A stretch of DNA of 32,523 nt from Prochlorococcus sp. AG-436-K22 (GTDB taxonomy: Bacteria; Cyanobacteriota; Cyanobacteriia; PCC-6307; Cyanobiaceae), in the NCBI GenBank assembly GCA_003212555.1, contig QCPK01000014.1:1-32523 (forward strand), read 5' to 3'. Positions within the stretch are counted from its first letter, which is position 1. Each line of letters begins with the position of its first letter. The translations under genes were made by a program, and so were the position numbers. The notes under the pieces were generated by a model. That model was not told where the DNA came from. It ran no database searches and was given only the letters and a program-made list of their open reading frames with translations. Positions 420 to 26,385 of the stretch are shown piece after piece.

Positions 420-1109
420 TTAATATCTTAAGTAATCCCTAGAGTTGTTACCACAATTAAAAAGCAGATCAATTATAGATATCTTATGGTGAAAGTCATT
501 AGCTAATTGTGGATACTCCTTGTAATCATTATAATTGAACCAGGTTAGTTTTATATCATTATCCTCAAATTTTCTCTCATCTATATAAGCTTTAGCTGTT
601 GGACCAGAAACATATTCATCCCCCCCGGCCTTGATTGTAAGACTTATTAATTTATCAGTACTGCTTCCAGCAGCATTATAGTTAGAACTTTTGCTAATCT
701 TAGTGGAGATTGACAAGAAGTAAGATATCCTATCAATGAATAGATGATTTATGTCTGATAAGAGTTTGCTTTTATTATATATATATAATGGCTCTAACAA
801 ATTGGAAATCAAATCATAGTAATGTGCCTTGGAATAATTTTTCTTTATACAGTTCCAATGGTCGAAGTTCCAATTTTTATTTGACACTTCTATGTTTTTA
901 ATTAATTCAAGGTATTTCCCCTTTGTCTTGACAGGTATAGTCAACCAAGTCATACCTTTAGGTGTAATAATTTGATTTCTATTTCTCCAATCCCTTCGCG
1001 TATATTGAACATCATCTAGTAAAATAAATTCATCTACATAACTAATTAAATCAAAATATCCTTTCCAGGGGATGTAATTAGGTTGTAATATGGCAATTTT
1101 TTTACTCAT
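420..1109 (-). CDS. WbqC-like family protein
   Basis: A 229-residue protein that opens with KKIAILQPNYIPWKGYFDLI, the hallmark N-terminus of the WbqC-like family. The full length agrees with the family, and the segment ISLTIKAGGDEYVSGPTAKAY (near residues 155-175) fits its conserved middle. WbqC-like proteins occur in O-antigen and surface-glycan clusters; their reaction is not established. The gene lies 30 nt downstream of the methyltransferase at 1140-1823 on the same strand and is probably co-transcribed with it. Its place in a glycan island supports a role in sugar modification, but no substrate can be read from the sequence. Confidence 0.88.
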   Translation of the reverse strand: MSKKIAILQPNYIPWKGYFDLISYVDEFILLDDVQYTRRDWRNRNQIITPKGMTWLTIPVKTKGKYLELIKNIEVSNKNWNFDHWNCIKKNYSKAHYYDLISNLLEPLYIYNKSKLLSDINHLFIDRISYFLSISTKISKSSNYNAAGSSTDKLISLTIKAGGDEYVSGPTAKAYIDERKFEDNDIKLTWFNYNDYKEYPQLANDFHHKISIIDLLFNCGNNSRDYLRY

Positions 1110-1139: not shown

Positions 1140-1823
1140 TTACTTTTTCGCTGTGAATAGAAACAATGTTTCTCTAGTCCCGAACCAATCTACATCATAG
1201 TCCGAGACATTTATGTTTTTAAAACCATTTCTAGTCAGGTCTCTCGTGACCTCTGCCTTTGATTTATGGATATAGTATAATTGCCCATCACGTAATTTAT
1301 AATAAGGATCTTTTAGTCTAATTATATTTTCAGATAAATATTCAGCATCTTTGGTTATATGCGAATCTGCTCTTGTAAATGATCCTAATAAATATCCTTC
1401 AGGTTTAAGTATAGCATATATATGAGAAATAATTTTATCAATTGTTGTTGTTTTATCTTTCAGGTACATAAGCGCAGCATTACTATAGATATAGTCAAAA
1501 TAATTTTCATTATACCCTGTATTATCATTAGTTCCTACTTTAAGATTTGATTGAATTCCAGCTTTTTTAAATTTATTTCTTGTATGAATTACAACTTGTT
1601 CATCTACCTCCACTCCATAAATATTTAACCCTAGTTCTGAAAAGAGTATAAGATCTCTACCGTCTCCGTATCCAACATCTAATATATTCTTACCCTTAAA
1701 ATCTACTCCTTGCATTGAGAAATTTGGATTTTTTCCAAGAAATAACTTTAGAGAGATAGATGAAGGAAAGACATTATTTATTTTTAAGTAGTGTTCTCTG
1801 TATTCCTTCTGGTAACTTACCAT
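1140..1823 (-). CDS. Class I SAM-dependent methyltransferase
   Basis: A 227-residue protein with the SAM-binding motif I ILDVGYGDGRDL at residues 47-58, the acidic end of strand beta2 in YGVEVDEQ (69-76), and a motif III-like YSNAALMYL block near 112-120. It has a single Rossmann-type methyltransferase domain with no transmembrane segment, so a cytoplasmic enzyme acting on a small molecule or sugar is likely. It precedes the WbqC-like gene by 30 nt. Between it and the next gene upstream (the glycosyltransferase at 2729) is a 905-nt stretch with only decayed ORFs. The acceptor is unknown; O-methylation of a surface-glycan sugar is a reasonable inference from context. Confidence 0.85.
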   Translation of the reverse strand: MVSYQKEYREHYLKINNVFPSSISLKLFLGKNPNFSMQGVDFKGKNILDVGYGDGRDLILFSELGLNIYGVEVDEQVVIHTRNKFKKAGIQSNLKVGTNDNTGYNENYFDYIYSNAALMYLKDKTTTIDKIISHIYAILKPEGYLLGSFTRADSHITKDAEYLSENIIRLKDPYYKLRDGQLYYIHKSKAEVTRDLTRNGFKNINVSDYDVDWFGTRETLFLFTAKK

Positions 1824-2728
1824 ACGTTTTTCTTAGCAACTCTATATATTCTACTGATATTAAATAGTTTATGTAATGTTAGTCTATCAATGGATATAAT
1901 CCCAAGAAAACCTTAGATCTCATATGATTTGGATCAAAAGACAGTGCTTTAAAAAGATCCACCTCCTCAACTCCATTCTTGCAGCTTCCATTAGAAAGTA
2001 TGATTAATTGAGATCTATCTGGAATTCTGTCCGTAAGCACCCTGTGATTTTGCTTTTATCAACTAAGTAACTGCAACCTGACGAACAATTGCGGCATCTT
2101 ATGCTTAATGATGCATTTTATATTATTGAATTGTAGTCTAAATACAGCTAAAATTTTATCTAATGTCAAATTATAATGTTCACTCATAATTACACCTTCT
2201 ATAGCATAGAGCTGAGTCCTTGTTCAATACCCAAAAGATTCTTTCATAGGAGAATAACCCAAAGCTGGATCTATTCATATAGATAATGGATTAAATAAAC
2301 TAGTATACTTTGGAATATAAATATTGCATTATCTTGCTTATTTATTTAATCAATTGCTTTTGTTATTCAGATGTTTTTACTAATTTAGCAATTGGCCCTC
2401 CGCTGCCTGCAGAACAGCCTATACAATATTTAGACAGTAAACTATTCTTTATGACTTCCAATTTGAATTTAGTAAAGGTGCCAATACCTTTTTAATTTGG
2501 GCATTACTAGATGCTTATTATCTACCAAATGAATTACTTAAGCTTAGCAAGTATTAGCCTTTTAGATCTATTGAATTAAATACTTTAGACTTTATAGATT
2601 TTCGCAACTCTTTAGTTATATAATATGACAATAGTAAAATTCTTTCAGAAATATCTTGAATTGCGGCAGTAATTATACTCATAACAATATAGTGAATTTC
2701 ATGTAAATTTATAATAAAATATTTATAG
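1824..2728. other. Gene-poor, AT-rich gap
   Basis: This 905-nt interval separates the methyltransferase from the GT2 gene. Apart from the decayed ORFs at 1879-2187 it holds a plus-strand 61-codon open frame (2310-2495) with a hydrophobic start but no ribosome-binding site or recognised domain. Its look is that of eroded island DNA. No RNA gene or terminator is evident. Confidence 0.5.
1879..2187 (-). pseudogene. Decayed ORF pair, origin not recognised
   Basis: Two minus-strand open stretches abut: 2059-2187 (42 aa, ATG start, begins MSEHYNLTLDKILAVF) and 1879-2055 (58 aa, contains LTDRIPDRSQLIILSNG and NHMRSKVFLGLYPLID). Both have ordinary protein composition and are separated only by a stop and frame change, which suggests one gene broken by a frameshift. 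I could not assign a family. The rest of the gap 1824-2728 is AT-rich and holds no convincing gene. Confidence 0.3.
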
Positions 2729-3658
2729 CTAAACTTGTTTGCTATAAATTTCTCTGATTATTGTATAAGGTCTATTTTTGGTTTCAATGAAGATTCTCGA
2801 GATATATATGCCTATAAGGCCTTGAATTGCTATCAGTATTCCTCCTATCATCCAAATTGAGACCATAACAGATGTCCAACCAGGGACAGGCGATGATTGT
2901 GATAGCCATCCATGTATGACATAAATAGTCCAGAGAATTGAAGCAATGAAAATGCTTATTCCAAAGTAAAATGTTGCTACTAATGGAAAAGCACTTAGTG
3001 ATGTTATTGCATCAATAATGAGTCTCATTTTAGTTATGAAAGTATAAGTACTAGGACTATTATTTTTCTTATTCACTTCATAAGGAATCTGCCTGTAGCC
3101 TGTAAGTGCATATAAACCTGATAGAACAAAGTTCTGCTCTTTATATTCGCATAGAGAATTCTTATACCTAGCTGACATTAAGGAAGATGTAGTTGTACCT
3201 TTTTGAGGGTGCTTAATATTCGAGATAAAGCTTATTAATGAATAGTATATTTTGCCTGTCACTCTATCGATAAGATTACCCCTTCTATTTTTTTGTACCC
3301 CATAGACAAGATCAACTTGATTACTTTTAAATTCTGCGTAGAAACCTTTAAGCCATTCTGGCTCTTCCTCTAAATCTGAATCTAGTAACCAAATTAGATC
3401 ACCTTGAGCATATGATAATCCTGTCATGATTGCTTTATGGTGACCAAAATTACGAGATAACTCAATTAATTTTATTCTAGGATCCTTGTTACATAAGTCT
3501 CGGACTATTGAACTAGACCTGTCTGGTGAACCATCATTTACAAAGATAATCTCTAGGTTATTAAAGTATTCTTCGGCAGTTTTTAGTGACCTCTTATAAA
3601 ACTCCAAAATATATTTCTCGGAATTGTATACCGTTGTCACAATGGAAAGATCTATCAA
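2729..3658 (-). CDS. GtrB/DPM1-like family 2 glycosyltransferase
   Basis: A 309-residue protein. The N-terminal GT-A domain has LSIVTTVYNSEKYI (residues 4-17), FVNDGSPDRS (39-48), ELSRNFGHHKA (66-76) and the metal-binding DSD in IWLLDSDLEEEPEW (89-102). Two hydrophobic segments follow near residues 222-248 and 262-290. This architecture is that of polyprenyl-phosphate sugar transferases such as GtrB and DPM1, which charge undecaprenyl phosphate with a single sugar at the cytoplasmic membrane face. A GtrA-like flippase at 13029-13466 could be its partner. A decayed relative lies at 11024-11218. The gene stands alone, with large AT-rich gaps on both sides. Confidence 0.9.
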   Translation of the reverse strand: MIDLSIVTTVYNSEKYILEFYKRSLKTAEEYFNNLEIIFVNDGSPDRSSSIVRDLCNKDPRIKLIELSRNFGHHKAIMTGLSYAQGDLIWLLDSDLEEEPEWLKGFYAEFKSNQVDLVYGVQKNRRGNLIDRVTGKIYYSLISFISNIKHPQKGTTTSSLMSARYKNSLCEYKEQNFVLSGLYALTGYRQIPYEVNKKNNSPSTYTFITKMRLIIDAITSLSAFPLVATFYFGISIFIASILWTIYVIHGWLSQSSPVPGWTSVMVSIWMIGGILIAIQGLIGIYISRIFIETKNRPYTIIREIYSKQV

Positions 3659-4005: not shown

Positions 4006-4803
4006 TCAGGAAATAAAAGGATAGGTGCTAGCAAATAATGCTGCTCTCATTTTTATTGGTTCAAATGTAAATACTTCTGAAGGATCAACTTCTTGAACAC
4101 CATGAAGGCCAGAACCATCAAAGATTGTTATTGAAGATGGAGATTCTAGTGTTCTGTCTGTAAATATCTGATTTTTATTTTGCTTATCAATTACGTAGCC
4201 TCCTCCTTGGAAATAGTCTCTAGATCGAATACTTAAAGATACACTCACTTGTAAGAATGGGATCATAGAACTCTTCATTATTTCTGGGAACTTTTCATCT
4301 AAATGCCTGCTCATGAAACCTCCACCAACTGGATAGTGATGAATTCTGCTGGCATTCCAAAACTTTTCTGTTTTTGGAGAATATCCAAATGAAATAGGCA
4401 AATCACTTAATAGATTTCTAAGAATTACTAAGAATCTAGAAAGTTTAAATATATTGGATTTAGATTTAGATAAGAATTCAATCGATGATGGTAAATAGGT
4501 AGTTTTTAGTAATTGGGCAATAGGGTAACCACCTCCATTAGTAGAGCCAATAGAGTACTTAGTAAAGTAATTCTCTTTTATATCTTCCCATCTAAAACTA
4601 GATGTTGAAGGATTTATGCGATATTTTTTATCTGTAATTAATCTTCTATATTCATTAAGTGAACTATCTAATAATTCTCCAAATGAATGATCCATTTGGA
4701 GAATATAGTACCCTTTTTTTTTGATTGTAGTTAATATTTCAGATTTTAAATCTTTGAATTGAGATTTTGAAATATATGGATCTAGAGGACTAGTTATTTT
4801 CAT
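4006..4803 (-). CDS. Probable 2-oxoglutarate/Fe(II) oxygenase
   Basis: A 265-residue protein whose C-terminal half has the layout of a 2OG-Fe(II) dioxygenase. RHLDE gives an HxD pair (H167, D169), GLHGVQEV gives a distal His (H234), and R253 in KMRAALFAS, 19 residues further on, is placed to bind 2-oxoglutarate. The segment HHYPVGGGFMSRH before the HxD pair is also typical of the fold. Such enzymes hydroxylate small molecules, sugars or carrier-bound amino acids. It sits 555 nt downstream of the adenylation-enzyme operon on the same strand, so it could modify the acyl group made there. That link is inferred. The substrate is unknown. Confidence 0.72.
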   Translation of the reverse strand: MKITSPLDPYISKSQFKDLKSEILTTIKKKGYYILQMDHSFGELLDSSLNEYRRLITDKKYRINPSTSSFRWEDIKENYFTKYSIGSTNGGGYPIAQLLKTTYLPSSIEFLSKSKSNIFKLSRFLVILRNLLSDLPISFGYSPKTEKFWNASRIHHYPVGGGFMSRHLDEKFPEIMKSSMIPFLQVSVSLSIRSRDYFQGGGYVIDKQNKNQIFTDRTLESPSSITIFDGSGLHGVQEVDPSEVFTFEPIKMRAALFASTYPFIS

Positions 4804-5358: not shown

Positions 5359-6930
5359 CTAGATAGAATGGATACGTTTCTCTATCATTTTTGTTATTAA
5401 ATTTCTGTTAATCTTTCCATTTTGATTTAGTGGGAAATTATTACATATAAAAATATCATTAACTCTCATTACTGAGGGAAGAATTTTTGATAGTTTTTGT
5501 AACAACAGATTTTCATTGGGCCATACACTTATACTCTGCTCAAAATCTAGTTTAGATATTCCTGAGCCTAGTAGTAATATTAACCTGTTAAAACCTCTAT
5601 CAGATATTGCAATTACTAAAACATTTTCTTCTTTTAGGTATATACTGATTCTACTTTCTATCTCCTCGATTTCTATTCTTTGCCCTTTAATTTTTATCTG
5701 ATTATCCTTTCTACCGTAGATATATAATAATTTATTTTCATACATAGAAACTATATCTCCAGTACTAAAGTACTTTTTACCATTTACTTTTATAAATGGA
5801 GAGTGTTTATTATCTAAGTATCCGATCATGACACATTCTCCACCTAAAAGTAATTCACCTTGAGATTCTTTTTTGTTGGTTATGTTTATCAAATAATTAA
5901 AATAATCAAATATTCTTCCTATTGGTAGCATCGCAGAGTTGACCTCGTGAATTTTTCGGATTTCATTAAATCTATTAGTATCTAACTCGAAGTAGGAACA
6001 CATGCAGGTGCATTCTGTGGGGCCATAGAAATTTACTAGCCTTGGGACCGAATTAAATTGAATTAAAAGATCGTTTGCCTGTTTCCAGGAAAATGGCTCA
6101 CCACCAAATCCTACAAAGATTTCTTTTTTTGAAAAATTTGATATGTTTTTGAAAAAGGATTTTTTCATTAAAATCTTTATTACAGAAGGTGCTGCATATA
6201 CAAAATCTATCTGTTCTAGTAGACTTTTTCCTATATTATTATTTGGTGTATTAATGACACTTACAAATTGATTCATGTTAAATAAGCATACTGTTGAATT
6301 GCTGATTATATGGGTAGCAAGATCAAATATAAAATTATCAAAATAAAGTGGACTTAAAGATAACATACATTTGTAGTATAATTTGTCATGAAATAATTCT
6401 TTTGATAAGTAGTTAATATAAATAGAAAGTGCTTTATTGCTAATAATCACACCCTTCGGAATACCTGTACTGCCAGATGTAAACATATAGTAGGCTACTT
6501 TATTTTTGTAACTATCAACATTATTAATATCTAATTTATCAATTAGAATTTTCAATTCATCTTTATCCTTTTCGTTAGATCTATTAATTACGTCTTTAAT
6601 CTTTTTCGTTGGGAAATGATAGTAATCACCTAGTTGATCCACAGTCTCTTCTATTCTATTTTGGGGCTGATCTTGATTAACATTTACGAATGCTTTTCCA
6701 GAAAGCAAGCATGCATAAATAGCCTCTATACAATATTGATTTTTTTCACCATTCATTAATATTATATTTGCTTTTATATTTTTAAACTCTTCGATAAGAA
6801 CAAATATATTAGAGACAAAAACTTCATTTGCTACTTTTCTAATATCATCATTCTTGCTATATATTATTGCATACTTGTAGGGAGACTCTATTCTTCTTAT
6901 AAGGCTTTTTCTAATTAGGCTAAATAACAT
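5359..6930 (-). CDS. Stand-alone amino-acid-type adenylating enzyme
   Basis: A 523-residue ANL-superfamily enzyme with a complete motif set: TSGSTGIPKG (151-160), SPLYFDNFIFDL (193-204), NFYGPTEC (300-307), STGDIV (389-394), GRKDNQIKIKGQRIEIEEIE (406-425) and NQNGKINRN (502-510, with the catalytic Lys at 507). It has no fused carrier domain. Overall size and the FD pair in the second motif resemble DltA and NRPS A domains, where that Asp binds the alpha-amino group, so activation of an amino acid is the best guess. It should form an acyl-AMP and load the carrier encoded at 8632-8886. Its start overlaps the end of the formyltransferase gene by 11 nt. It is last in the six-gene operon. Confidence 0.9.
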   Translation of the reverse strand: MLFSLIRKSLIRRIESPYKYAIIYSKNDDIRKVANEVFVSNIFVLIEEFKNIKANIILMNGEKNQYCIEAIYACLLSGKAFVNVNQDQPQNRIEETVDQLGDYYHFPTKKIKDVINRSNEKDKDELKILIDKLDINNVDSYKNKVAYYMFTSGSTGIPKGVIISNKALSIYINYLSKELFHDKLYYKCMLSLSPLYFDNFIFDLATHIISNSTVCLFNMNQFVSVINTPNNNIGKSLLEQIDFVYAAPSVIKILMKKSFFKNISNFSKKEIFVGFGGEPFSWKQANDLLIQFNSVPRLVNFYGPTECTCMCSYFELDTNRFNEIRKIHEVNSAMLPIGRIFDYFNYLINITNKKESQGELLLGGECVMIGYLDNKHSPFIKVNGKKYFSTGDIVSMYENKLLYIYGRKDNQIKIKGQRIEIEEIESRISIYLKEENVLVIAISDRGFNRLILLLGSGISKLDFEQSISVWPNENLLLQKLSKILPSVMRVNDIFICNNFPLNQNGKINRNLITKMIEKRIHSI

Positions 6931-7888
6931 ATTTTTTCTCTTTTAGTATTATTAGTTCATCATTATTAATAACATAACTTTTATTAAAGCAACCTCTAGT
7001 TGTAGTAAGTATTATTTCCTGGTTTCTATAAATTGCTATTCGATTTTCTAATATATATATAATTAAGTTATTGGGTAAAACCTTATTTCTTGTACAATTA
7101 TATATTAATTCTTTTAACTTCCCTTCTGAATCATTTAATATAGAAGCATTGAGCAAATATATTGCATCACCTAATTGTTTATTTGTTTTCTTTGTGTGAA
7201 TAATAGCTTCCATTCCATAATTTTTAAGAGAGCAGCAACGGATATGATTAACAAATTCACTATTGGAGAAATATTCCTTATATATGCCATAATCTTTAGG
7301 CCTATTAAAATAAGAGGATCCTTCTAATAATTTAACTTTTGACTCTGCTTTTATTTCATTGATAAAATTGTAGACTGTTTTTTTATCTGATATTTCTTTT
7401 GAAATATATTTACCTGCTTCTTTTTCGAGTAAAAAGCTCAAGGAGTAAATGTCTTTGATATCCATATTTCCTTCAATTGGAATAATTGTGGAAGTCCATA
7501 GTATCTTCCCACTATCAATTCTCATTGACATCGAATGAATCGTAACAGCTATATCTTCACCCTTTAGTATTGATCCTATACCAGGATCCCTTCCTCGAAG
7601 TTTTGGTAAATTAGAAGGATGAATATTTATAAACGATAGTATTTTATATTTATTAATATCTATTTTAAATGGTACACCACACGATATAAATAGCGTTTCT
7701 TCGTCTATAGCAACGAGCAATTCATTCAAATCATCTTTATTAGAAAAAGTAAGATGTTTTATTTTCTCCTTTTTGCAATAAGTTTCAAGAAATGAATTTG
7801 TTAAAGCGTATACTGTAAGTGATTCTTTCACACCTTCATTAATTGAAGAAAGTGCATGATGACGGTTACCAGCATAAATAAACTTCAT
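6920..7888 (-). CDS. Formyltransferase-fold enzyme
   Basis: A 322-residue protein related to methionyl-tRNA/sugar formyltransferases. The core INIHPSNLPKLRGRDPG (from residue 87) supplies N88 and H90, and SMRIDSGKI supplies D125, so the N-H-D catalytic triad is intact. The family transfers a formyl group from N10-formyl-tetrahydrofolate to an amine. The C-terminal 150 residues are not recognisable as the tRNA-binding domain of Fmt and may bind another substrate. It lies between an SDR gene (4-nt gap) and the adenylating enzyme (11-nt overlap), so the amine is plausibly on an aminoacyl carrier or an aminosugar, not on initiator tRNA. This is an inference from context. Confidence 0.85.
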   Translation of the reverse strand: MKFIYAGNRHHALSSINEGVKESLTVYALTNSFLETYCKKEKIKHLTFSNKDDLNELLVAIDEETLFISCGVPFKIDINKYKILSFINIHPSNLPKLRGRDPGIGSILKGEDIAVTIHSMSMRIDSGKILWTSTIIPIEGNMDIKDIYSLSFLLEKEAGKYISKEISDKKTVYNFINEIKAESKVKLLEGSSYFNRPKDYGIYKEYFSNSEFVNHIRCCSLKNYGMEAIIHTKKTNKQLGDAIYLLNASILNDSEGKLKELIYNCTRNKVLPNNLIIYILENRIAIYRNQEIILTTTRGCFNKSYVINNDELIILKEKKYVI

Positions 7889-7892
7889 TTAG

Positions 7893-8642
7893 CTATAAAA
7901 TCAGACCACCGTCAACTCTGATAGTTTGTCCATTTATATAATTGCAATTTATAAGCATTTTCAATGCTTCATATAAGTCGCTTGATCTGCCAAGTCTTCT
8001 TTGACTTGTCTTTCTAATTACCGCATCAATTGATTTATCAGTCATTTGTTTTCTCATTGACGTTGACTCAATAAAACCAGGGGCTATAGCATTAAAACTA
8101 ATATCTAATTGTCCATATTCCTTTGATAAAACTGACCCGGCTGTTTCTAGGGCAGCCTTCATAGCTGAATAACCTAGTTGGCCAGGATTCCCCATAGATG
8201 CTACAGAGCTGAATAAAATAGAAGTTCCAAAACCTCTTTTTCCAACCACTAAATTTGCAAATTGTGTTGAAAGTGTAATTGGAATTAAAAAATTCGTCTC
8301 GAAGTCAATTTTTAGACTTTCAATTTGATCATAATAGTATTTCTGATGGTTCTCCAAGTCAGCATCTAGTTTGAGAAATGACTTAGAGGAGATCAAACCT
8401 ATGCAATTAATCAATGCAATACCATCTTTGCAATTATCATTTATAAAAGAAATTGCTTTGTCTGGATATCCATTTGATAAGTCATCATTAATAAATTGTA
8501 TATCTTTTGAGTTTATTTCACAATTATCTTTGTCAATTGCCATTATATTTCTATAGTCCTTGGAAAGCAAATCTAAAAGATTTTTACCAATACTTCCAGC
8601 ACAACCCAGAACAAGTATACTTCTTATATGTTTATTTATCAT
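7893..8642 (-). CDS. FabG-like short-chain dehydrogenase/reductase
   Basis: A 249-residue classical SDR. The cofactor loop is GCAGSIGK (13-20), a variant of TGxxxGIG. NCIG replaces the usual NNAG. The catalytic Ser is in SSVASMG and the Tyr/Lys pair in YSAMK. The C-terminus ...NGQTIRVDGGLIL is the typical SDR ending. It is likely an NAD(P)H-dependent reductase in the cytoplasm. Its start overlaps the carrier-protein gene by 11 nt, which suggests translational coupling and a substrate that may be carrier-bound (as for FabG) or a sugar nucleotide. Which one cannot be decided from the sequence. Confidence 0.88.
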   Translation of the reverse strand: MINKHIRSILVLGCAGSIGKNLLDLLSKDYRNIMAIDKDNCEINSKDIQFINDDLSNGYPDKAISFINDNCKDGIALINCIGLISSKSFLKLDADLENHQKYYYDQIESLKIDFETNFLIPITLSTQFANLVVGKRGFGTSILFSSVASMGNPGQLGYSAMKAALETAGSVLSKEYGQLDISFNAIAPGFIESTSMRKQMTDKSIDAVIRKTSQRRLGRSSDLYEALKMLINCNYINGQTIRVDGGLIL

Positions 8643-8886
8643 ATTGACTATTAAGTATTTTTATCAAATCAGAGTAAATATTTATTGAATTTAGTTGATC
8701 TTTTGTGAGTCTTATATAATATTTTTTTTCTAGAAAAATAATGAATTGCATAACTTCTAATGAATCTAATATGCCTTGGGACTCTAATGGGAGTTCTTTA
8801 GAAATATCTTTTATATTTACTTCACGTCCCAAAAATTCTTCTATATCAGAATGTCCACCTGGGGTGTTTGAAAGCTCAAAACCCAT
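8632..8886 (-). CDS. Stand-alone acyl/aminoacyl carrier protein
   Basis: An 84-residue four-helix carrier. The phosphopantetheine site is in QGILDSLEVMQFIIFLE, with the modified Ser in the D-S-L motif. The pattern GILDSxxxxQFIxxLExxYxIxL is closer to DltC-type D-alanyl carriers and stand-alone PCPs than to the housekeeping AcpP. It should be loaded by the adenylating enzyme at 5359-6930. It starts directly after the end of the hexapeptide acyltransferase gene and overlaps the SDR gene, so four activities are produced from one tightly packed transcript. Confidence 0.88.
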   Translation of the reverse strand: MGFELSNTPGGHSDIEEFLGREVNIKDISKELPLESQGILDSLEVMQFIIFLEKKYYIRLTKDQLNSINIYSDLIKILNSQYDK

Positions 8887-9648
8887 CTATAGGAATCGTA
8901 TGAATTCATCTGATTCTAACATATGTGGATTAGAAGATTGTGGCAAGCGTGTTATGACCTGATTCCCTTTAGTAGAAGTAGGTGCAGTACTCCCAGCCAT
9001 AATTAATGTACCTTCGGAAATATTTGCTCCAGAAGGAATAATTGAACCGATACCTAAAAAACTTCTTGGGCCAACTTTGCATTTCGCTCCTATAACAGAT
9101 CCAGCAGCAATCCAATTAAATTCTTCTATATCACTATGATGGCAAACTTGAGCCCCAAACCAGGCTACAGTACCTTTCCCCAGGCTAACATCTGGCTCAA
9201 TAATTGATTTGGGCAAAACTAAACAACCATAATCTATTCGACTATTATTTCCAATATATGCTTTTGAGCTTATAAATGATCGTATCTTAAAGTTAGGAGA
9301 AATTTCTTCAATTAAGGTAAAAATTCTTTTACGATTTCTATTCATTTCGGAATAACCTATTGAAGGGTATATATCACATTTTTTATTTATACTTAAAATT
9401 TCCTTTTGGAAGTATTCTGTTATATCATCACCTTGAAAAGAAGTAACTTTTAAGGGATTTTTATTTTCAGATGAAGTATAGATTTCTATAAAACCAATAA
9501 ATAAATTATCTAAATATCCTTCTTCAATCATTAATGAATAAATTAATCCTGAAATTCCACCTTTACCTAAAATAGCCCACTTAGTAGATATTCTATCAGA
9601 TTTTTTTATAAGCGATTCTAAAACCTGTTTTCCCATAATGCAATCCAT
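8887..9648 (-). CDS. NeuD/PglD-like hexapeptide acyltransferase
   Basis: A 253-residue protein with an N-terminal mononucleotide-binding-like segment (KWAILGKGGISGLIYS), as in PglD and NeuD. It is followed by a left-handed beta-helix with hexapeptide repeats such as AYIGNNSRIDYGCLVLP, VSLGKGTVAWFGAQVCHHSDI and GPRSFLGIGSIIPSGANI. The HHSDIEEF stretch carries the His expected at the acetyl-CoA site. Family members acylate aminosugars. Two starts are possible, 9648 (MDC...) or 9636 (MGK...); both lie inside the upstream gene, giving a 41- to 53-nt coding overlap. The acyl donor could be acetyl-CoA or the neighbouring carrier protein. Confidence 0.85.
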   Translation of the reverse strand: MDCIMGKQVLESLIKKSDRISTKWAILGKGGISGLIYSLMIEEGYLDNLFIGFIEIYTSSENKNPLKVTSFQGDDITEYFQKEILSINKKCDIYPSIGYSEMNRNRKRIFTLIEEISPNFKIRSFISSKAYIGNNSRIDYGCLVLPKSIIEPDVSLGKGTVAWFGAQVCHHSDIEEFNWIAAGSVIGAKCKVGPRSFLGIGSIIPSGANISEGTLIMAGSTAPTSTKGNQVITRLPQSSNPHMLESDEFIRFL

Positions 9649-10543
9649 TATAAAAGAGAATTATATATTTATTATAAAGCATAAGATAAGGATAACATTG
9701 ACACTTCTCAAAGTTAGTATCATCAATTGATTTTATTTTAACGAGCTTATCGCTTGAATCTATTATTTGATCTAATCCATTATTAGAAGAACGTGAGAAG
9801 ATTAGGTAGTCATTTGAATACGAAGTTTCCCTTTTACAATAAAATACATATGTATTTTTTTTTATCTTTAATACCGCTGGTCTTGCTATCGCGTATTCTT
9901 TGCAAGAAGTTTGCTGGACTATATCAGTAGATTTTGTTGAGAAATACTCATGGCTAGAAGATTCACGGACTTTTATCGTATAGAAGTGATGAGGCTTGGA
10001 AAAGCCATTTGGTTTTTTATATTGTGAAGCTGAGGTATAAAGCATTTTAAAGATACCGCCCTCTTTATGAACAAATGGGCTTGCAGCCCAGCATGCATCA
10101 TTAGGCCCTCTATCTAAGACAGGTCCACCGAAATGCTTAATAAGCTTCAGATGCTCATCTAAAAGCACTAGACCACTTGAAGCATTAAAAATAGAATTAT
10201 TTCTTGAATCAAATCCAATTGTATAAAGAGCTCTTGAATTATTTAGCTTAATTGAACAACTAGGAATAATTCCATATTCACAATAAGAGCCTATTTCGCC
10301 TCTATCAACTAATGGTTGGTCTACAGATTGACTATGAACCTTGAAGTGCAAAGAACCTTCTTTCTCTTCAATTTTTAAAGCAATTAAAGCTATATAGGTC
10401 CTTTTATGGGTCTCGTATACTCCAATTGCAAGATCAATCAAGTTATTTGTTGCTCTTAAGACAACAGGAGTCCTTCCACCGAATAACCCCTTAGAGGAGA
10501 ATTGAGAGGCGCAAAACTTAAAACCTGAGTCGATAAAATCCAA
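9596..10543 (-). CDS. Five-bladed beta-propeller glycosidase-like protein
   Basis: A 315-residue protein resembling the GH43/GH32-type propeller proteins found in surface-glycan islands. Blade-like signatures can be read: GSYCEYGIIPSCSI, DACWAASPFV, IARPAVLKIKKNTYVFYCKR and KCQCYPYLMLYNKYIILFYNG, ending in YGKTGFRIAY. There is no signal peptide, so it is probably cytoplasmic. In related islands such proteins accompany formyltransferases and WbqC- or NeuD-type genes; their function is not proven and the catalytic acids cannot be assigned by eye. It is the first gene of the operon, and its 3' end overlaps the next gene by up to 53 nt in another frame. Confidence 0.75.
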   Translation of the reverse strand: MDFIDSGFKFCASQFSSKGLFGGRTPVVLRATNNLIDLAIGVYETHKRTYIALIALKIEEKEGSLHFKVHSQSVDQPLVDRGEIGSYCEYGIIPSCSIKLNNSRALYTIGFDSRNNSIFNASSGLVLLDEHLKLIKHFGGPVLDRGPNDACWAASPFVHKEGGIFKMLYTSASQYKKPNGFSKPHHFYTIKVRESSSHEYFSTKSTDIVQQTSCKEYAIARPAVLKIKKNTYVFYCKRETSYSNDYLIFSRSSNNGLDQIIDSSDKLVKIKSIDDTNFEKCQCYPYLMLYNKYIILFYNGLHYGKTGFRIAYKKI

Positions 10544-10751
10544 TTTTATTTAAACTAAAATTTAAATTTTCTATTATAGGGGTAGCATGAATAACAATAA
10601 TTTCATCTAAAATGCTAGATCTGAAACTATACTTATGCCATTTAATAAAATGAACTGCTGTAAAGCGCAGGAAAATAGCACCTACAATTGCTCCTGTAAT
10701 AACGAGAAGCAGTTGATAATTTGTAGCAAAAGCAGCAGTTACACTGTCAAC
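10518..10751 (-). pseudogene. C-terminal remnant of a TerC-family membrane protein
   Basis: The minus frame reads VDSVTAAFATNYQLLLVITG, then AIVGAIFLRFTAVHFIKW. This matches the TerC-family pattern DSVxAAFAxTxxxxxxxTGxxxGxxxxRFTAxxFIxW, where the Asp belongs to a conserved membrane site. Nothing upstream restores the N-terminal half, and the 3' tail diverges. The remnant overlaps the start of the propeller gene by 26 nt. It indicates that the operon was inserted next to, or replaced, a former TerC gene. Confidence 0.65.
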
Positions 10752-11431
10752 CTAAAAAGCCATTTCTGTAAATGACAGCATTGTTATCTATCATTTTTAT
10801 AAATTGACTGAGAATACTAAAAATTTAAAATTAATTGCATGACTTCTGCATATTTCAAATGACTTCAGATATAGAAAGTCTTACTTAAGCAAGGCTTCTG
10901 TAACTTTAACAATGAAGCTTTGTTCGAATTCCTCTGCTGAAAACCCTTTCTAAATTCCTTGTAAAATTAAGCAACAAGAGGGAATGAACTAAAGTAACTC
11001 ACCTTATAAAATACTAATCTCAATTATTTAATAAGAGATTGCATTAAATTGTGGTAAGAATATCTACTTAATTCCTTTATAATAGCAAATTTTCTTTTTC
11101 GTTTAATTCGATAGCAAATATCAGGCCTTTCTCTATTTACTTTTTTGTAGAATAGTTTTATCCTTTCAGCTTGATCTTCTAAGTCCACATCAATTAGCCA
11201 TATATTTTTTGAGCGATTGAATTGTTTCTACCTTATCAACCGTAATGAATAAATAGTCTCTTTATCTCTTAGACATTTTCTTATTCTTAGAAAGTTTATC
11301 TTTACATAAATATCATATATAGACATATGATTAGCATAGTTTATTTACTATTTAAATGTTAATTATTAATTAATTTCTTTGCTTAATACAAACGATTATT
11401 TCTTGTAGATAAATTGTAGTTTTAGCATAAA
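10752..11431. other. Eroded DNA between two glycan cassettes
   Basis: A 680-nt gap that holds only the GT2 remnant at 11024-11218 and scattered stops elsewhere. The part from 10752 to 11023 shows no gene. The part from 11230 to 11431 contains further minus-strand GT2-like debris (an LSKN-like piece) and then very AT-rich sequence that ends at the stop of the membrane glycosyltransferase gene. Confidence 0.5.
11024..11218 (-). pseudogene. Remnant of a GtrB-like glycosyltransferase
   Basis: The minus frame reads NRSKNIWLIDVDLEDQAERI, then KLFYKKVNRERPDICYRIKR. This aligns with the intact GT2 gene at 2729-3658, where LIWLLDSDLEEEPEWLKGFY is followed by DLVYGVQKNRR. The central DxD is kept as DVD, but everything upstream is frameshifted and the membrane helices are missing. 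It is a dead second copy of the same enzyme class, probably a relic of an earlier glycan cassette. Confidence 0.65.
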
Positions 11432-12919
11432 TTACTCTAAAGGAGTTTTATCTATTCTCAGCTTCTCATTAGGCCTAATTAAGTAATGTGAAATTACTGA
11501 TAACTCTATCCAGGGAGTCAAAAATATTAGATATCTTGTCTCAACAGCGTTTAGTAATATTGGAAATATAATAATATGTGAGATTATTAAAGCAAATGAA
11601 ACAAATATTAAATAACTTTTAAATGTGACTCTTTTAAGGTTATTTGATTGTTTCAAACTTATTAGTTTGGAAAATGTAGAGAGAACACAATTTAGATATA
11701 ATAAGTATAGTCCTATTCTGTAAAGAAATAGCAATACTTTAAAAACAACTTTATAGATTAAACTTGGGTTAATTTTAATATAATCTATGATAGAGTTATT
11801 TTCGATAATTTCTCCTATTTCTATATTATATCCCCATGACTGCAGTGGATTAGTAAAATATGAAACTGTTCTTAGGAAATATAGATTTAGCCTAATTAAT
11901 ATATTATATGAATCTAGTTGCTTCTCTTTTAAATTAATAAACTCTCTTATAGCTTTTTCTGAGAAACCATAAGACTTAGTGTCAAATTCTTTTTGTATTA
12001 AATCCTTAACGTATAAAGCATCTGACGATGAAAGGAAAATTCCTTTATTTAATACTACCTTGCTTGGTGAATTAGACCAAATTGGCCATGTTGCAAAATT
12101 CCTAGCGTATTCACTTACGCTCCAGCTAGCAACCCAGTCTTGATATTCTTTCATTCCTTTAGGGGAGTTACTTGCATAACCCGTCAAAGCACCGAGTGCA
12201 TTATCTGTTAGAGAATAACCCCTAACTAACCATGGAGATATAGTAATAGATACTATTAATATTACACTAGTAATTCCAATAAAAGATCTTTTAATTCCAT
12301 ATAGTATGTATAAACAACAAAAGATCAATGGTATAACCATTATTATACTTGGCTTGAAATAAAAACCAATAGATACAAGTACACATAGTCTTATTATAAA
12401 ATATATACTAGATCGTCTATTAAAATATATGTAGACAATTTCAGATAAAATAAATAGCCCTATGGCCGATAATATAGGCTCTATCAATATCATTCTTGAA
12501 TAGCCTAGGCTAAGTGGCGATAAGCCTATTAAAAGTCCAATAATAAAAGCATTCCCTTGGTTTCTTGTTAGAAAAAAAAGATTTCGCGACAGATGAGTTA
12601 CAGCATAACTAAAAACAATACTTGTAAAAATAGCTAAATTTAAGTTAGATAAGCCTAAATGATAAAATATTGCTAATAGAGTAGGATATGCTGGGAAATA
12701 TACTCCAGTTAAAGGCTCACATCCGGAAGTAGAAATAGATGCTGAGAAGCCACAACCATTTCTTATATTATTAGCAATACGCATATACAAATATGTATCG
12801 CCGGCCTCTAGCTCAGATGTGTATATGTAGATTAAACGGGGTATTAAAATCAGCAGAAAAAGTCCTAAATAAAATAGTAGAGCTTTATTCTTCTTATGAA
12901 AGCGTAAAATCAAAATCAT
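11432..12919 (-). CDS. GT-C type membrane glycosyltransferase
   Basis: A 495-residue polytopic protein with about ten hydrophobic segments. The first (residues about 13-33) is followed by a loop with ELEAGDTYLYMRIANN (36-51), where an acidic residue at the end of the first membrane span is typical of ArnT/PMT-type GT-C enzymes. The later loop has GCEPLTGVYFPAYPTLL. Such enzymes use polyprenyl-phosphate sugars on the periplasmic side. That fits with the GtrB-like transferase and the GtrA-like flippase, the latter being divergently transcribed 109 nt away. No acceptor can be inferred. The start at 12919 is the first Met before a short basic segment. Confidence 0.82.
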   Translation of the reverse strand: MILILRFHKKNKALLFYLGLFLLILIPRLIYIYTSELEAGDTYLYMRIANNIRNGCGFSASISTSGCEPLTGVYFPAYPTLLAIFYHLGLSNLNLAIFTSIVFSYAVTHLSRNLFFLTRNQGNAFIIGLLIGLSPLSLGYSRMILIEPILSAIGLFILSEIVYIYFNRRSSIYFIIRLCVLVSIGFYFKPSIIMVIPLIFCCLYILYGIKRSFIGITSVILIVSITISPWLVRGYSLTDNALGALTGYASNSPKGMKEYQDWVASWSVSEYARNFATWPIWSNSPSKVVLNKGIFLSSSDALYVKDLIQKEFDTKSYGFSEKAIREFINLKEKQLDSYNILIRLNLYFLRTVSYFTNPLQSWGYNIEIGEIIENNSIIDYIKINPSLIYKVVFKVLLFLYRIGLYLLYLNCVLSTFSKLISLKQSNNLKRVTFKSYLIFVSFALIISHIIIFPILLNAVETRYLIFLTPWIELSVISHYLIRPNEKLRIDKTPLE

Positions 12920-13028
12920 ATAATATTTTTAAAATAATACCATTTTCAATTTTATTGTTAGTAGCATAGTTTTATTCTTAATATTTCATTAGTCATACAG
13001 AATCATTCTATTTATACAAATTAGACTA

Positions 13029-13466
13029 TTGTTAAATCTAGTAACTCATAAAAGGAATCTAAAAAATTATTTCTCTCGCCATCAGAAGCTAAAACTAACC
13101 CGTTATTCGTTGATAGGACTATTTTTAAATGTAATCGGTTATAATGTTTACCTATTATTAACTTCTTTATATATTGATCCTAAGCTAGCAAGTGCCACAA
13201 TCTTTTTATTGGGAACTTTAGCAAGTTTTTATGGAAATAAAAAAATTACTTTCTTAAATAGAACCAGATCTTCATACTCTCTTTTAATATATTTCCTAAT
13301 ATTATCATTTGCTTTAGCATTTAGTCAATTTAATTTATACATCTTGGTGGACATATATGGATACCCCCATCAGTTGATTCAACTTCTTAATATTATACTA
13401 AATGTCCCACTCACCTTCACTATGGCAGATAAATTTGTATTTTCTAATCATATGAATAGTAAATAG
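13029..13466 (+). CDS. GtrA-like flippase
   Basis: A 145-residue protein with four predicted membrane spans. It shows the GtrA-family pattern: LTRYSLIGLFLNVIGYNVYL, then ASFYGNKKITFLN, and near the end LNIILNVPLTFTMADKFVF. GtrA proteins are thought to move polyprenyl-phosphate sugars across the cytoplasmic membrane for GtrB/GT-C pairs. The reading frame begins with TTG at 13029, because no ATG precedes the first conserved span. The gene is divergent from the GT-C gene, which suggests shared control of the 109-nt AT-rich region between them. Confidence 0.85.
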   Translation: MLNLVTHKRNLKNYFSRHQKLKLTRYSLIGLFLNVIGYNVYLLLTSLYIDPKLASATIFLLGTLASFYGNKKITFLNRTRSSYSLLIYFLILSFALAFSQFNLYILVDIYGYPHQLIQLLNIILNVPLTFTMADKFVFSNHMNSK

Positions 13467-13741
13467 CAATTCAAACCATAACTTGCAACTTATATTTTTA
13501 AGATCACCAAGTATATATAATATAAATTATCTGGACTTATATCATGAAACTTTTAATTTTAATAGCTCTAGTGAAATTAAATTATTTCCATTCCTAATTT
13601 TTACAGACAATAGGTCAATTGTCTAGTTACACTTTTTTTCTGAGTAAAACTTCTTTATTTTTTATTTTCTATATAAGCAGTTAAGTCTGCAGAAGGGCAT
13701 GGACTAAGAGGTTTTTCGAAAACCTCATCATCCTCTCCTAC

Positions 13742-13906
13742 ATGTTTATATCCATCGAGCCTTTTATACATAGCTTATTTCTGTATGGAATTTACCCAGA
13801 CGTGCTGATTCTTGAAAATAAAAATATTTTCCGAGAAGAAGCGATTGAAAAATGGGCCGAATTAATAAAAGAAAGCTGGCATAAAAGCCAGCCTTTAAGA
13901 CTATAG
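13742..13906 (+). CDS. DUF1651-like small protein, N-terminus degenerate
   Basis: A 54-codon ORF whose second half reads REEAIEKWAELIKESWHKSQP. This resembles the C-terminus of the picocyanobacterial DUF1651 family (pattern REEAIxxWxxLxxxGWxxxxP). The N-terminal residues (MFISIEPFIHSLFLYG) do not match the expected start of that family, so it may be a truncated member or a relic. No function is known. Confidence 0.45.
   Translation: MFISIEPFIHSLFLYGIYPDVLILENKNIFREEAIEKWAELIKESWHKSQPLRL
13872..13895 (-). terminator. Possible minus-strand terminator hairpin
   Basis: gctggc (13875-13880) and gccagc (13887-13892) form a 6-bp stem with a 6-nt loop. On the minus strand it is followed by a T-rich run (tttcttttatt). 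It lies inside the 3' end of the DUF1651-like ORF, so it could serve transcripts arriving from the right. Confidence 0.3.
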
Positions 13907-13982: not shown

Positions 13983-14096
13983 ATGCCAAAAGGAAAAGCA
14001 GAAAATTCAGCGGTTGCTACATATAGCTTGATCTTGTTAATAGGCTCAACTCTTTATTTATTATGGATGTTCCAAAGTTTTTTTAGGAAGTATTAG
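13983..14096 (+). CDS. 37-aa membrane peptide, GSTLYL family copy 1
   Basis: The ORF starts with ATG after an AAAAAGGA ribosome-binding site. It encodes a short polar start (MPKGKAENSAVATYS), one hydrophobic span (LILLIGSTLYLLWMF) and a basic end (QSFFRKY). The second half is a paralogue of the peptide at 15002-15094; 47 of 50 bases agree between 14041-14090 and 15033-15082. The single span with positive C-terminus suggests a one-pass membrane peptide, possibly an accessory subunit of a photosynthetic or respiratory complex. No family was recognised. Confidence 0.65.
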   Translation: MPKGKAENSAVATYSLILLIGSTLYLLWMFQSFFRKY

Positions 14097-14130
14097 TAGC
14101 AGTTGTTATCTACCTTAAGGAGGAAGAGTA

Positions 14131-15001: not shown

Positions 15002-15094
15002 ATGGAAACAATTTTCCCAATGATGTTATTTGTAGGCTCAACTCTTTATTTAGTATGGATGTTCCAAAGGTTTTTTAAGAAGAAGGATTCGTAG
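15002..15094 (+). CDS. 30-aa membrane peptide, GSTLYL family copy 2
   Basis: METIFPMMLFVGSTLYLVWM followed by FQRFFKKKDS: a single hydrophobic span with a strongly basic tail, preceded by a GGAG/AAGGA-rich leader. Its second half is paralogous to 13983-14096 at both the protein and the DNA level, while the N-termini differ. A one-pass membrane peptide of this size would suit an accessory subunit of a membrane complex. No family was recognised. Confidence 0.65.
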   Translation: METIFPMMLFVGSTLYLVWMFQRFFKKKDS

Positions 15095-15144
15095 CAGTAT
15101 TGCTGGTTGATAAAGATTTGAGTTAGATCAGCTAGAAAGGGGAT

Positions 15145-20904: not shown

Positions 20905-20962
20905 GACCACTAACGACCTACAAAAGGGCTTGAGAAAGGCCTTTTGTAGGTCGTTAGTGGTC
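20905..20962. other. 58-nt near-perfect hairpin
   Basis: Arms of 23 bp pair perfectly (20905-20927 with 20940-20962). After one G-G mismatch, three more pairs (ctt/aag) close a GAGA tetraloop at 20932-20935. It lies between the convergent genes 20723-20875 and 20995-21243, so a bidirectional terminator is possible, but no T-run follows on either strand. The stem is far longer than a normal terminator needs. Confidence 0.9.
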
Positions 20963-24490: not shown

Positions 24491-26002
24491 ATGTTTTTTA
24501 GATTATCCAAAGAAGAGAATAAGAAGTTCTCATCAAAAAAAACAATCTTCAACGTTTCTATTCTAGCTGGCGCAGTTTTGCTATTTGGAATTGATCATGG
24601 TGTTCAAGCTAAACCGAGTCCAATCGTTGCTGTAGAGCCATTGACTTGTGACCTGGTTAAGGCAATCGCTTTACCATCAAAATCAGTTAATTGTTTAATC
24701 GACAGGAAGCAAGATGTGCATGACGTCATAATTTCTCCTAGGCAAGCTCAATTTCTAAAGAATGCAAGTCAAGTATTTACTCTTGGGCAAGAGATGACTC
24801 CCGCAATGAGAAAATGGCTGGATAATCCCATAACGGTTGTTGTCGGTGTAAGTGCAATAGAAATTGACCCCCACGACGATCATTCAACTGCTATTCATGA
24901 TGGCCACGATGATCATTCGTCTGCGAAGCATGACGATCATTCAGCTGCTAAACAAGATGACCACGATGATCATGGAGATGAAGCTTTTGAATGGGCTGGT
25001 GTCTTTGAACTTTCACCAGGAACCTATAAATGGTCTTTTGCAAAAGTCGATGGAAACTATGCGGATCCTGCAATGAAAATGGTGATCCTTAAATCTGGGG
25101 ATATTGAAGCATCAGAAGATCTTGCTGAAGAATTATTAGAGTCCAAAAAATCAGAAGTTAAAAGTAACAATGACAAACTTGTTGCACAAGGAAAAGCCTA
25201 TCTTCTTACATTTAATGAGAGAAAAGATAGCACAACATTCAATGTAGAAATAAAAAAAGCTGGTAAATATGCATTCTTTACTGAGCATATGCCTTTTGAG
25301 TTTGAAGCCGATGAACATTTCTTTAAAGATGTTTCAGGCGATGATATTGAACCGATAGCCCAAGTTCCAAATGAAGACGGTGATCATCATCATCACCATG
25401 ATCATGGAGGACTAGATCCACATATTTGGCATGATCCTCATAACATCATCAAGATGGGAAATGTCATTTCTAAAGAGCTCAACAAGAAGATTTCATTCTT
25501 TGATAGAGAAACCAAAAAAGTTTTAAAAGAAAGAACTCAAGAGTTTAATTCTATTTTAGAAGATTTAGAGCAATGGACTCAAAAACAAGTAGCCACAATC
25601 CCTTCTAATCAAAGGACGATAGTTTCCAAGCATAAAGCTATGGAATACTTCGGGGATGCTTTTGGTTTGAAAACCATTAGCTTATTAGATTTTCTTGGTC
25701 ATTCATCGAGCCTTAGGCCTCAGACTCTTTCCAAAGTAATAACAGAGCTTAGACAAGAGAATGTACAAGTTATATTTCCAGAGCAAAACCCTCCTTCAAA
25801 GCTATTGAAAAACTTAAGTAGACAAACTTCTACCCCTCTAGCAAAACAACAGATTTTTGTTGATGGTTTAATGCCTACAGGAAATACTATTTCTGTAGCT
25901 GTTCATAACACATGTACCATCGTTAACTCTTTGGGTGGTTCCTGCAATAAGAAAGCAGGTAATCAACTAGAAAATAGGTGGGATTCATTAACTAAACGTT
26001 AA
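24491..26002 (+). CDS. znuA: His-rich zinc-binding lipoprotein/periplasmic protein ZnuA with inserted domain
   Basis: A 503-residue cluster A-I solute-binding protein, much longer than typical ZnuA (about 300). A signal sequence ends near residue 40 (GIDHGVQA/KPS). Likely zinc ligands are H77 (QDVHDV), H311 (LDPHIWHDP), H381 (SKHKAMEYF) and an acidic residue near E431. Two His-rich loops (128-161 and 299-306) flank an inserted domain at about 166-280 that starts FEWAGVFELSPGTYKW and ends FFTEHMPFEF. That domain recurs in the GTPase at 26382. No lipobox Cys is seen. It should capture periplasmic zinc and pass it to ZnuBC. It heads a run of five plus-strand genes. Confidence 0.93.
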   Translation: MFFRLSKEENKKFSSKKTIFNVSILAGAVLLFGIDHGVQAKPSPIVAVEPLTCDLVKAIALPSKSVNCLIDRKQDVHDVIISPRQAQFLKNASQVFTLGQEMTPAMRKWLDNPITVVVGVSAIEIDPHDDHSTAIHDGHDDHSSAKHDDHSAAKQDDHDDHGDEAFEWAGVFELSPGTYKWSFAKVDGNYADPAMKMVILKSGDIEASEDLAEELLESKKSEVKSNNDKLVAQGKAYLLTFNERKDSTTFNVEIKKAGKYAFFTEHMPFEFEADEHFFKDVSGDDIEPIAQVPNEDGDHHHHHDHGGLDPHIWHDPHNIIKMGNVISKELNKKISFFDRETKKVLKERTQEFNSILEDLEQWTQKQVATIPSNQRTIVSKHKAMEYFGDAFGLKTISLLDFLGHSSSLRPQTLSKVITELRQENVQVIFPEQNPPSKLLKNLSRQTSTPLAKQQIFVDGLMPTGNTISVAVHNTCTIVNSLGGSCNKKAGNQLENRWDSLTKR

Positions 26003-26052: not shown

Positions 26053-26385
26053 ATGTCTAAAGCTAAAGGTCTAGAAACTTATAAGAGATATTGGGAAGAT
26101 CAAGCAAGTTTCATGGATCAATCACCATGGAAGCAACAAAATATCTTAAAGTTAACTCTCTCAAATGATTTTGAGGAAAATATTGAAGAACTTAAATTTT
26201 CAGATCACTCCATTTCAAAAGAAGATGGGAAATTAATTTTACGATTAAAAGTTCCCTACAACTACTTTGAGCTTGATGACTTTGAGGGAAAGGCTATCGA
26301 ACTCTTGGGCATCGATAAAAATTACGTAATCGATATGAACGTGACCAATTCTAATTGTACTAAAGACTTAACAAAGACAAGATGA
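26053..26385 (+). CDS. 110-aa hypothetical protein of the zinc operon
   Basis: A soluble, acidic protein that starts SKAKGLETYKRYWEDQASFM and contains LKLTLSNDFEENIEELKFSD and LILRLKVPYNYFELDDFEG, so probably an alpha/beta fold. A single Cys and no membrane span are present. It begins 50 nt after znuA, and its stop overlaps the GTPase start (ATGA), so it is translated with that metallochaperone. Its function is unknown; a zinc-stress role is inferred from place only. Confidence 0.75.
   Translation: MSKAKGLETYKRYWEDQASFMDQSPWKQQNILKLTLSNDFEENIEELKFSDHSISKEDGKLILRLKVPYNYFELDDFEGKAIELLGIDKNYVIDMNVTNSNCTKDLTKTR

Follow-up and report, generated by a model that had tools for sequence, protein, structure and literature searches.

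What could a picocyanobacterium make with an adenylating enzyme, a carrier protein and a formyltransferase-fold enzyme that are encoded next to a homologue of sugar acyltransferases? This question is raised by six minus-strand genes at positions 5359-10543 of contig QCPK01000014.1 (C14) from Prochlorococcus sp. AG-436-K22. The window analysed here is this entire stretch of 32,523 nucleotides, which belongs to a 1.27 Mb genome of 72% completeness. In a sequence-only reading, the six genes had been proposed to form a joint carrier-protein pathway for decorating a surface glycan. Sequence comparison indicates that the set is a real, conserved and, as far as the literature is searchable, undescribed variant of carrier-protein-dependent sugar acylation, the chemistry of which we infer from the genes.

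The six-gene block and its recurrence

All six reading frames are open over about 5 kb at about 30% G+C; their order and families agree with those given by the sequence-only reading. Read from the upstream end, the block encodes a propeller protein (9596-10543, TTG start), a 253-aa left-handed beta-helix acyltransferase resembling NeuD, PglD and VioB (8887-9648; Hexapep, 1e-10), an 84-aa stand-alone acyl carrier protein (ACP; 8632-8886; PF00550 PP-binding, 8e-4), a FabG-like oxidoreductase of the short-chain dehydrogenase/reductase type (SDR; 7893-8642; PF13561/PF00106, 1.8e-15), a 322-aa formyltransferase-fold enzyme (FT; 6920-7888; PF00551 Formyl_trans_N, 7.8e-7) and a 523-aa stand-alone adenylating enzyme of the nonribosomal peptide synthetase type (A enzyme; 5359-6930; PF00501, 1.3e-29). 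The successive junctions measure -53, 0, -11, +4 and -11 nt, the gaps being of 0 and 4 nt. The packing is as tight as had been described, although the overlaps are of 53, 11 and 11 nt rather than ranging from 4 to 53 nt. A promoter scan gave no signal above chance.

The block is not a chance arrangement, because the gene set and its order recur in other phyla. When 84,980 species were scanned with an alignment of three A sequences, 80 loci were obtained (numbered below with the prefix L). In 21 of the 80, the genes for A, ACP, SDR, NeuD, propeller and the WbqC family protein all lie within 10 kb, so that the homologues do not occur only apart from each other. NeuD is present in 24, the propeller in 23, WbqC in 21 and a DegT transaminase in 22 of the module loci (SDR plus ACP or NeuD; n = 26). 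The other 54 loci hold A domains of other clusters, and the respective counts are 1, 0, 1 and 3. This co-inheritance, with controls near zero, bears out the idea of a joint carrier-protein gene set in a glycan setting.

The order propeller-NeuD-ACP-SDR-FT-A is found unchanged in L022 (Desulfovibrionaceae), L041 (Thiocapsa) and L118, that is, in Thiocapsa and two genomes of another order. Since A similarity had been the basis for choosing the 80 loci, the 507 genomes of the orders to which the Thiocapsa and Desulfovibrionaceae genomes belong were also searched with FT, and L118 was reached in this way and not by the A search. It is one of four further FT genes found. The second, L116, belongs to another architecture described below, L119 has only DegT and WbqC beside FT, and the FT gene of L117 stands alone and carries an internal stop.

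Two architectures can be distinguished. The first, WbqC-GT2-(methyltransferases)-propeller-NeuD-ACP-SDR-[FT or GNAT]-A-(GtrA)-(WecE), where GT2 is a family 2 glycosyltransferase and GNAT an acetyltransferase, occurs in L022, L023, L024, L041 and L044; L118 follows it too, except that its WbqC and methyltransferase genes have no GT2 between them. The window keeps this order for the six genes, which are followed by genes for a 2-oxoglutarate (2OG) oxygenase, GT2, a methyltransferase and WbqC, with GtrA on the opposite strand. The second architecture, DegT-WbqC-ACP-SDR-A-NeuD-(GNAT)-methyltransferase-propeller, is found mostly in Bacteroidota. The conserved unit thus exceeds six genes and takes in WbqC and often an ArnC-like GT2, a methyltransferase, GtrA and a 4-amino-sugar transaminase.

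A related arrangement, ACP-SDR-A-NeuD-methyltransferase-propeller-TylF-DegT, is seen in L019 (IMGVR_UViG_3300037246_001176, 6800-13800) and its near-copy L020. The L019 contig is viral according to the IMG/VR classification; the record has no Terminase_6N match and little PHROG support nearby. FT and A, used as single queries against viral contigs, gave no useful relatives, and neither did an FT alignment; tblastn of FT against plasmids and phages found only a distant Alteromonas enzyme. Plasmid matches of A in Vibrio and Agrobacterium, which belong to polyketide clusters or clusters of other kinds, were discarded.

In picocyanobacteria the set is rare. No FT was found among 148 other relatives (E <= 1e-10), and G016 alone had an A enzyme of the present kind (E <= 1e-40). 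A search of 300 family genomes with the Thiocapsa A enzyme (E <= 1e-60) again returned G016 only. The G016 locus encodes, in this order, a MaoC-like and an AAC(3)-like protein, as read from the sequences, then A, ACP and a methyltransferase.

The carrier module and its putative exchangeable cap

The A enzyme retains the motifs TSGSTGIPKG, YGPTE, STGD and GRKDNQIKIKGQR as well as the A10 lysine, and the adenylating core that had been attributed to it is therefore present. It scores 175.7 bits with TIGR01733, under the cut-off of 317.4. The A and carrier proteins had been called DltA- and DltC-like. The resemblance exists; however, membership in the Dlt families was rejected for both, with 156.5 bits against a cut-off of 559.85 for DltA and 16.6 against 68 bits for DltC. 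The amine-binding aspartate (D235 of GrsA) and the A10 lysine occur in every A enzyme aligned (25 enzymes). The A enzyme would activate an acid, probably an amino acid, and load it onto ACP, as far as can be judged from these residues.

The pocket code of the window A enzyme reads D-N-F-Y-G-G-F-C-M-K, and that of its relatives is almost invariably D-N-F-F-(I)-G-V-C-I-K. These positions were placed by hand from GrsA numbering and serve as a lead, position 299 falling in an alignment gap and being taken from the sequence. The nearest published code is presumably an isoleucine one. Conservation of the pocket among relatives suggests a single substrate there, and the window enzyme may use another.

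The ACP serine of the DSL motif (S42) is invariant in the alignment, and its PF00550 score of 20.0 bits is just below the 20.8 cut-off. Its gene lies directly upstream of the SDR gene in 26 of 28 loci, and the pair is kept even where it is inverted relative to A (L035, L039 and L045). The SDR residues S145, Y158 and K162 are likewise invariant. The SDR probably acts on the ACP-bound group, to judge by this pairing. In the NeuD-like enzyme, the hexapeptide fold was recovered and His170, a histidine of the catalytic type, is invariant; the best solved match is PglD. It scores 94.3 bits with TIGR03570 (NeuD_NnaD), below the cut-off of 160.8, and the Thiocapsa copy reaches 148.5. For the propeller protein there was no Pfam match. 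Its AlphaFold2 model (27 sequences, pLDDT 89.4) is a predicted five-bladed GH43/GH117/GH130-like fold, with PDB matches at TM 0.6-0.67.

NeuD-like and propeller genes are adjacent or near each other with no A gene detected nearby in L005, L007, L015 and L017 (Bernardetia, Peteryoungia and two relatives of the window genome), and this pair thus occurs more widely than the carrier module. On a Rhizobium plasmid, L006 (8874-10810) has two tandem propeller genes beside DegT and WbqC.

FT reaches 29.5 bits with Formyl_trans_N, above the cut-off of 26.1, and residues N88, H90 and D125 are retained in the family alignment. In L023, L024 and L044 (Neorhizobium, Variovorax and a Desulfovibrionaceae genome) its slot is taken by a GNAT acetyltransferase, assigned to PF12746 in L023 and L024 and of the same family in L044. 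No FT gene was found in the whole genomes of these three loci. The apparent interchange of FT and GNAT in one slot points to N-capping of one amine, and FT may accordingly be regarded as a putative N-capping enzyme. On the A tree, neither FT nor GNAT forms a single branch; each requires 5 changes, with no clustering above shuffled labels, so that the exchange is recurrent or proceeds via transfer. The tree was quickly made, and the long branch of the window A enzyme leaves its placement uncertain.

Accessory genes, the proposed route and its rivals

Several genes of the larger set are found around the block. The WbqC family protein (420-1109, minus strand; PF08889, 8.2e-74) is a core member; its confident model (pLDDT 92.8) has no match among solved structures, the weak class I tRNA-synthetase-like matches not being counted as evidence. 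Next to it lies the gene for an S-adenosylmethionine-dependent methyltransferase (1140-1823, minus strand; Pfam methyltransferases), homologues of which stand in the operons of L024, L041, L044 and L118. The ArnC/PgfS-like GT2 (2729-3658, minus strand; PF00535) scores 159 bits with PgfS and 106.7 bits with the ArnC-type model, both below cut-off, and has a homologue within the operons of L022, L023, L024, L041 and L044. A remnant of a second GT2 gene (11027-11227, minus strand) is found upstream of the propeller gene, in the GT2 place of L022 and L023. It has no full frame and matches GT2 profile positions 86-147 (5.3e-14). GtrA, a probable flippase (13029-13466, plus strand; PF04138, 51.7 bits with a cut-off of 26.1), has homologues following the A gene in L023, L024, L041 and L044. 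GtrA together with the GT2 suggests transfer by way of undecaprenyl phosphate. The large membrane protein at 11432-12919 (minus strand; no Pfam match) is a tentative member and a candidate GT-C-type periplasmic glycosyltransferase. In the same genome, contig C5 encodes a protein 40% identical to it beside WecE.

The transaminase gene itself, of the WecE type, is located on contig C5 (558.5 bits, cut-off 375). RmlB was found above its cut-off on contig C40, and the genome has one phosphopantetheinyl transferase of the ACPS type. The transaminases of L041 and L024 pass the equivalog cut-off for dTDP-4-amino-4,6-dideoxygalactose transaminase (WecE-type), and for the L027 enzyme the best-scoring model is DesI, whose cut-off it misses. 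The sugar is probably a dTDP-4-amino-4,6-dideoxyhexose, as these matches suggest.

The 2OG oxygenase had been thought capable of hydroxylating the same group. It was rejected as a pathway member, having no homologue in the related loci; a second 2OG-oxygenase-like gene in the window (1882-2733, minus strand) is ruined, being colinear with the intact gene at 4006-4803 at 23% identity and with stops inside.

Elsewhere in the window, a ZnuA-like protein (24491-26002, plus strand) and the neighbouring CobW-like GTPase (26382-27764, plus strand) contain a similar stretch, read by eye as EWAGVFELSPGTYKW... and EWTGVFSLEKGRYEL..., which is perhaps a shared metal-related domain. There is also a direct repeat of about 78 bp with 85% identity (14029-14103 and 15021-15098) and a near-palindrome of 58 bp (20905-20962).

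The best explanation of the set, the chances of which we regard as evenly balanced, is that its enzymes work in the cytoplasm to assemble an aminoacyl group with an N-cap, which then becomes attached to the 4-amine of a 4-amino-4,6-dideoxyhexose in its nucleotide-linked form. An alpha-amino acid, which is probably small and aliphatic, would be adenylated by the A enzyme and loaded onto ACP, as suggested by the fold and motifs of this enzyme and by the pairing of the genes. The carrier-bound group would be oxidised or reduced by the SDR, whose gene accompanies that of ACP. FT would formylate the alpha-amine and GNAT would acetylate it instead in the relatives, a step proposed from the exchange in the slot. 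WecE would supply the 4-amine on the sugar, to which the NeuD-like enzyme would transfer the acyl group, with WbqC and the propeller as candidates for assisting in this or for shaping the acceptor or the product. The methyltransferase would methylate the sugar or the acyl group. Finally, the GT2 may transfer the sugar to undecaprenyl phosphate, with GtrA flipping it and a membrane transferase attaching it to the surface glycan. The transfer originally envisaged for the window is consistent with the recurring neighbours, and the FT/GNAT swap supports its N-capping step. In outline the sequence-only reading stands, except for the part given to the oxygenase.

Several observations weigh against such a pathway. 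It is not obvious what the FabG-like SDR would do with a plain aliphatic aminoacyl group, and several module loci have no recognised cap gene. The solved structures nearest FT are the sugar N-formyltransferases FdtF, WlaRD and VioF, and its phmmer alignment to FdtF and WlaRD extends to about residue 230 at low identity. Furthermore, L119 (7327-10110, minus strand) has FT, DegT and WbqC together with none of A, ACP and SDR, and may represent a simpler variant of the pathway that yields formyl-amino sugars. From this likeness and the L119 set, FT may formylate the sugar. In that case FT or GNAT would cap the sugar amine in the manner of VioF and WlaRD, and the group on the carrier would be attached at another site, for example a hydroxyl, via NeuD or WbqC. 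However, the FT and GNAT genes are located between SDR and A, inside the carrier genes, and NeuD-family enzymes typically N-acylate 4-amino sugars. The 4-N-(N-acyl-aminoacyl) products are also of the kind seen chemically (PMC10609480), and capping of the sugar amine seems rather unlikely. The pairing of a FabG-like SDR with ACP would also fit an A enzyme that activates a hydroxy or keto acid, which the SDR reduces on ACP to give a hydroxyacyl amide, FT or GNAT acting on another amine. This is the arrangement of the modified-viosamine (mVio) island of Pseudomonas syringae (vioA-M-T-S-B-R-acp), where a sugar 4-aminotransferase, the NeuD-like VioB, the FabG-like VioR, ACP, a methyltransferase and a glycosyltransferase serve a dTDP-4-amino-4,6-dideoxyhexose and a ketosynthase stands in the place of A (PMC3927599). 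Such a substrate is unlikely, since the amine-binding aspartate is present in all A enzymes aligned and the capping enzymes require an amine.

The remaining difficulties concern the window copy, which is known from a single assembly, 72% complete. The end branch of its A enzyme is 5.24 changes per site long (median 0.53), and the six genes and the methyltransferase show only about 21-28% identity to relatives that are mutually 50-64% identical. Four of the ten pocket residues differ from those of the relatives, and the adjacent GT2 and 2OG copies are ruined. The block might then be a fast-decaying relic or have changed its job, the relatives running the pathway and the window not. Yet its frames remain uninterrupted with catalytic residues intact, and it keeps 39-54% of the columns invariant in relatives against an overall identity of 21-27%, where the relatives share 50-61%; open frames and kept sites argue against simple decay, and we consider a relic decidedly unlikely. 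WbqC (51%) and GT2 (41%) have a normal-looking identity to relatives. Fast evolution of the core, an origin different from that of WbqC and GT2, or an ongoing loss of function would each account for this.

Relation to known systems and meaning of the set

The logic of the N-capped aminoacyl pathway appears closest to that of the mVio island and of a prediction made in 2010 for clusters with SerRS-like amino acid:[carrier protein] ligases. Unlike the mVio island, in which VioS (ketosynthase III) supplies the acyl group, the present set has an adenylating enzyme and FT or GNAT, besides WbqC, the propeller and GtrA; family scans found no ketosynthase III among the proteins of the window set. The mVio-type combination with the sugar 4-aminotransferase in one operon occurs in L041 and L024, and the window has all of it but the transaminase, which is on contig C5. 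In the SerRS-like clusters (Mocibob 2010 as discussed in PMC2922099), an amide of an amino sugar was predicted. The present set would share with them the loading of an amino acid onto a stand-alone ACP; it also has glycan genes and a redox enzyme. The ligase there is a class II tRNA-synthetase homologue, whereas here it is an ANL-fold A enzyme (PF00501), and no FT/GNAT slot is mentioned there. The word undescribed, used of the pathway in the sequence-only reading, therefore fits the gene set and not the principle, for which there are these precedents (PMC3927599; PMC2922099).

Other systems share parts of the set. Dlt D-alanylation also feeds a surface polymer from a stand-alone A enzyme and a carrier protein, but through the MBOAT protein DltB in place of a soluble hexapeptide acyltransferase, and SDR, FT and WbqC are extra here. 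VioF, WlaRD, FdtF and the formylation domain of LgrA, which formylates a carrier-bound amino acid, have the same fold and N-H-D set as FT, which is only distantly similar to them in sequence. The Gtr (GtrA-GtrB-GtrC) and ArnC/ArnT systems share GtrA, an ArnC/GtrB-like GT2 and a large membrane protein nearby, while the cargo here would be an acylated amino sugar.

Amino-acid amides of Qui4N and Fuc4N, several of them N-acyl-capped, are known O-antigen components. They include N-acetylglycyl, N-acetyl-alanyl, N-acetyl-allothreonyl and N-hydroxybutyryl-alanyl Qui4N and aspartyl Fuc4N (PMC10609480; PMC3210612). In the full-text literature on glycan genes, WbqC, carrier proteins and adenylating enzymes, which was covered in part, the gene set is not described, nor was a paper found that assigns N-acyl-aminoacyl amides of 4-amino sugars to it. 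The set is a candidate genetic basis for such groups across about six phyla. Tentatively, and with rather less than even confidence, it may be a widespread unnamed operon of these phyla and a viral-classed contig, in which A, ACP, SDR and an exchangeable cap place a modified aminoacyl group on dTDP-4-amino-4,6-dideoxyhexoses; it would then underlie amino-acid-amide sugars, which are known chiefly through their chemistry, the picocyanobacterial copy being re-specialised for another amino acid. It offers two natural experiments, which compare a formyl with an acetyl cap at the same position and the pocket that relatives conserve with the altered one of the picocyanobacterium. Phages and grazers probably target the surface sugars of picocyanobacteria, and a rare island trait of this kind could alter recognition.

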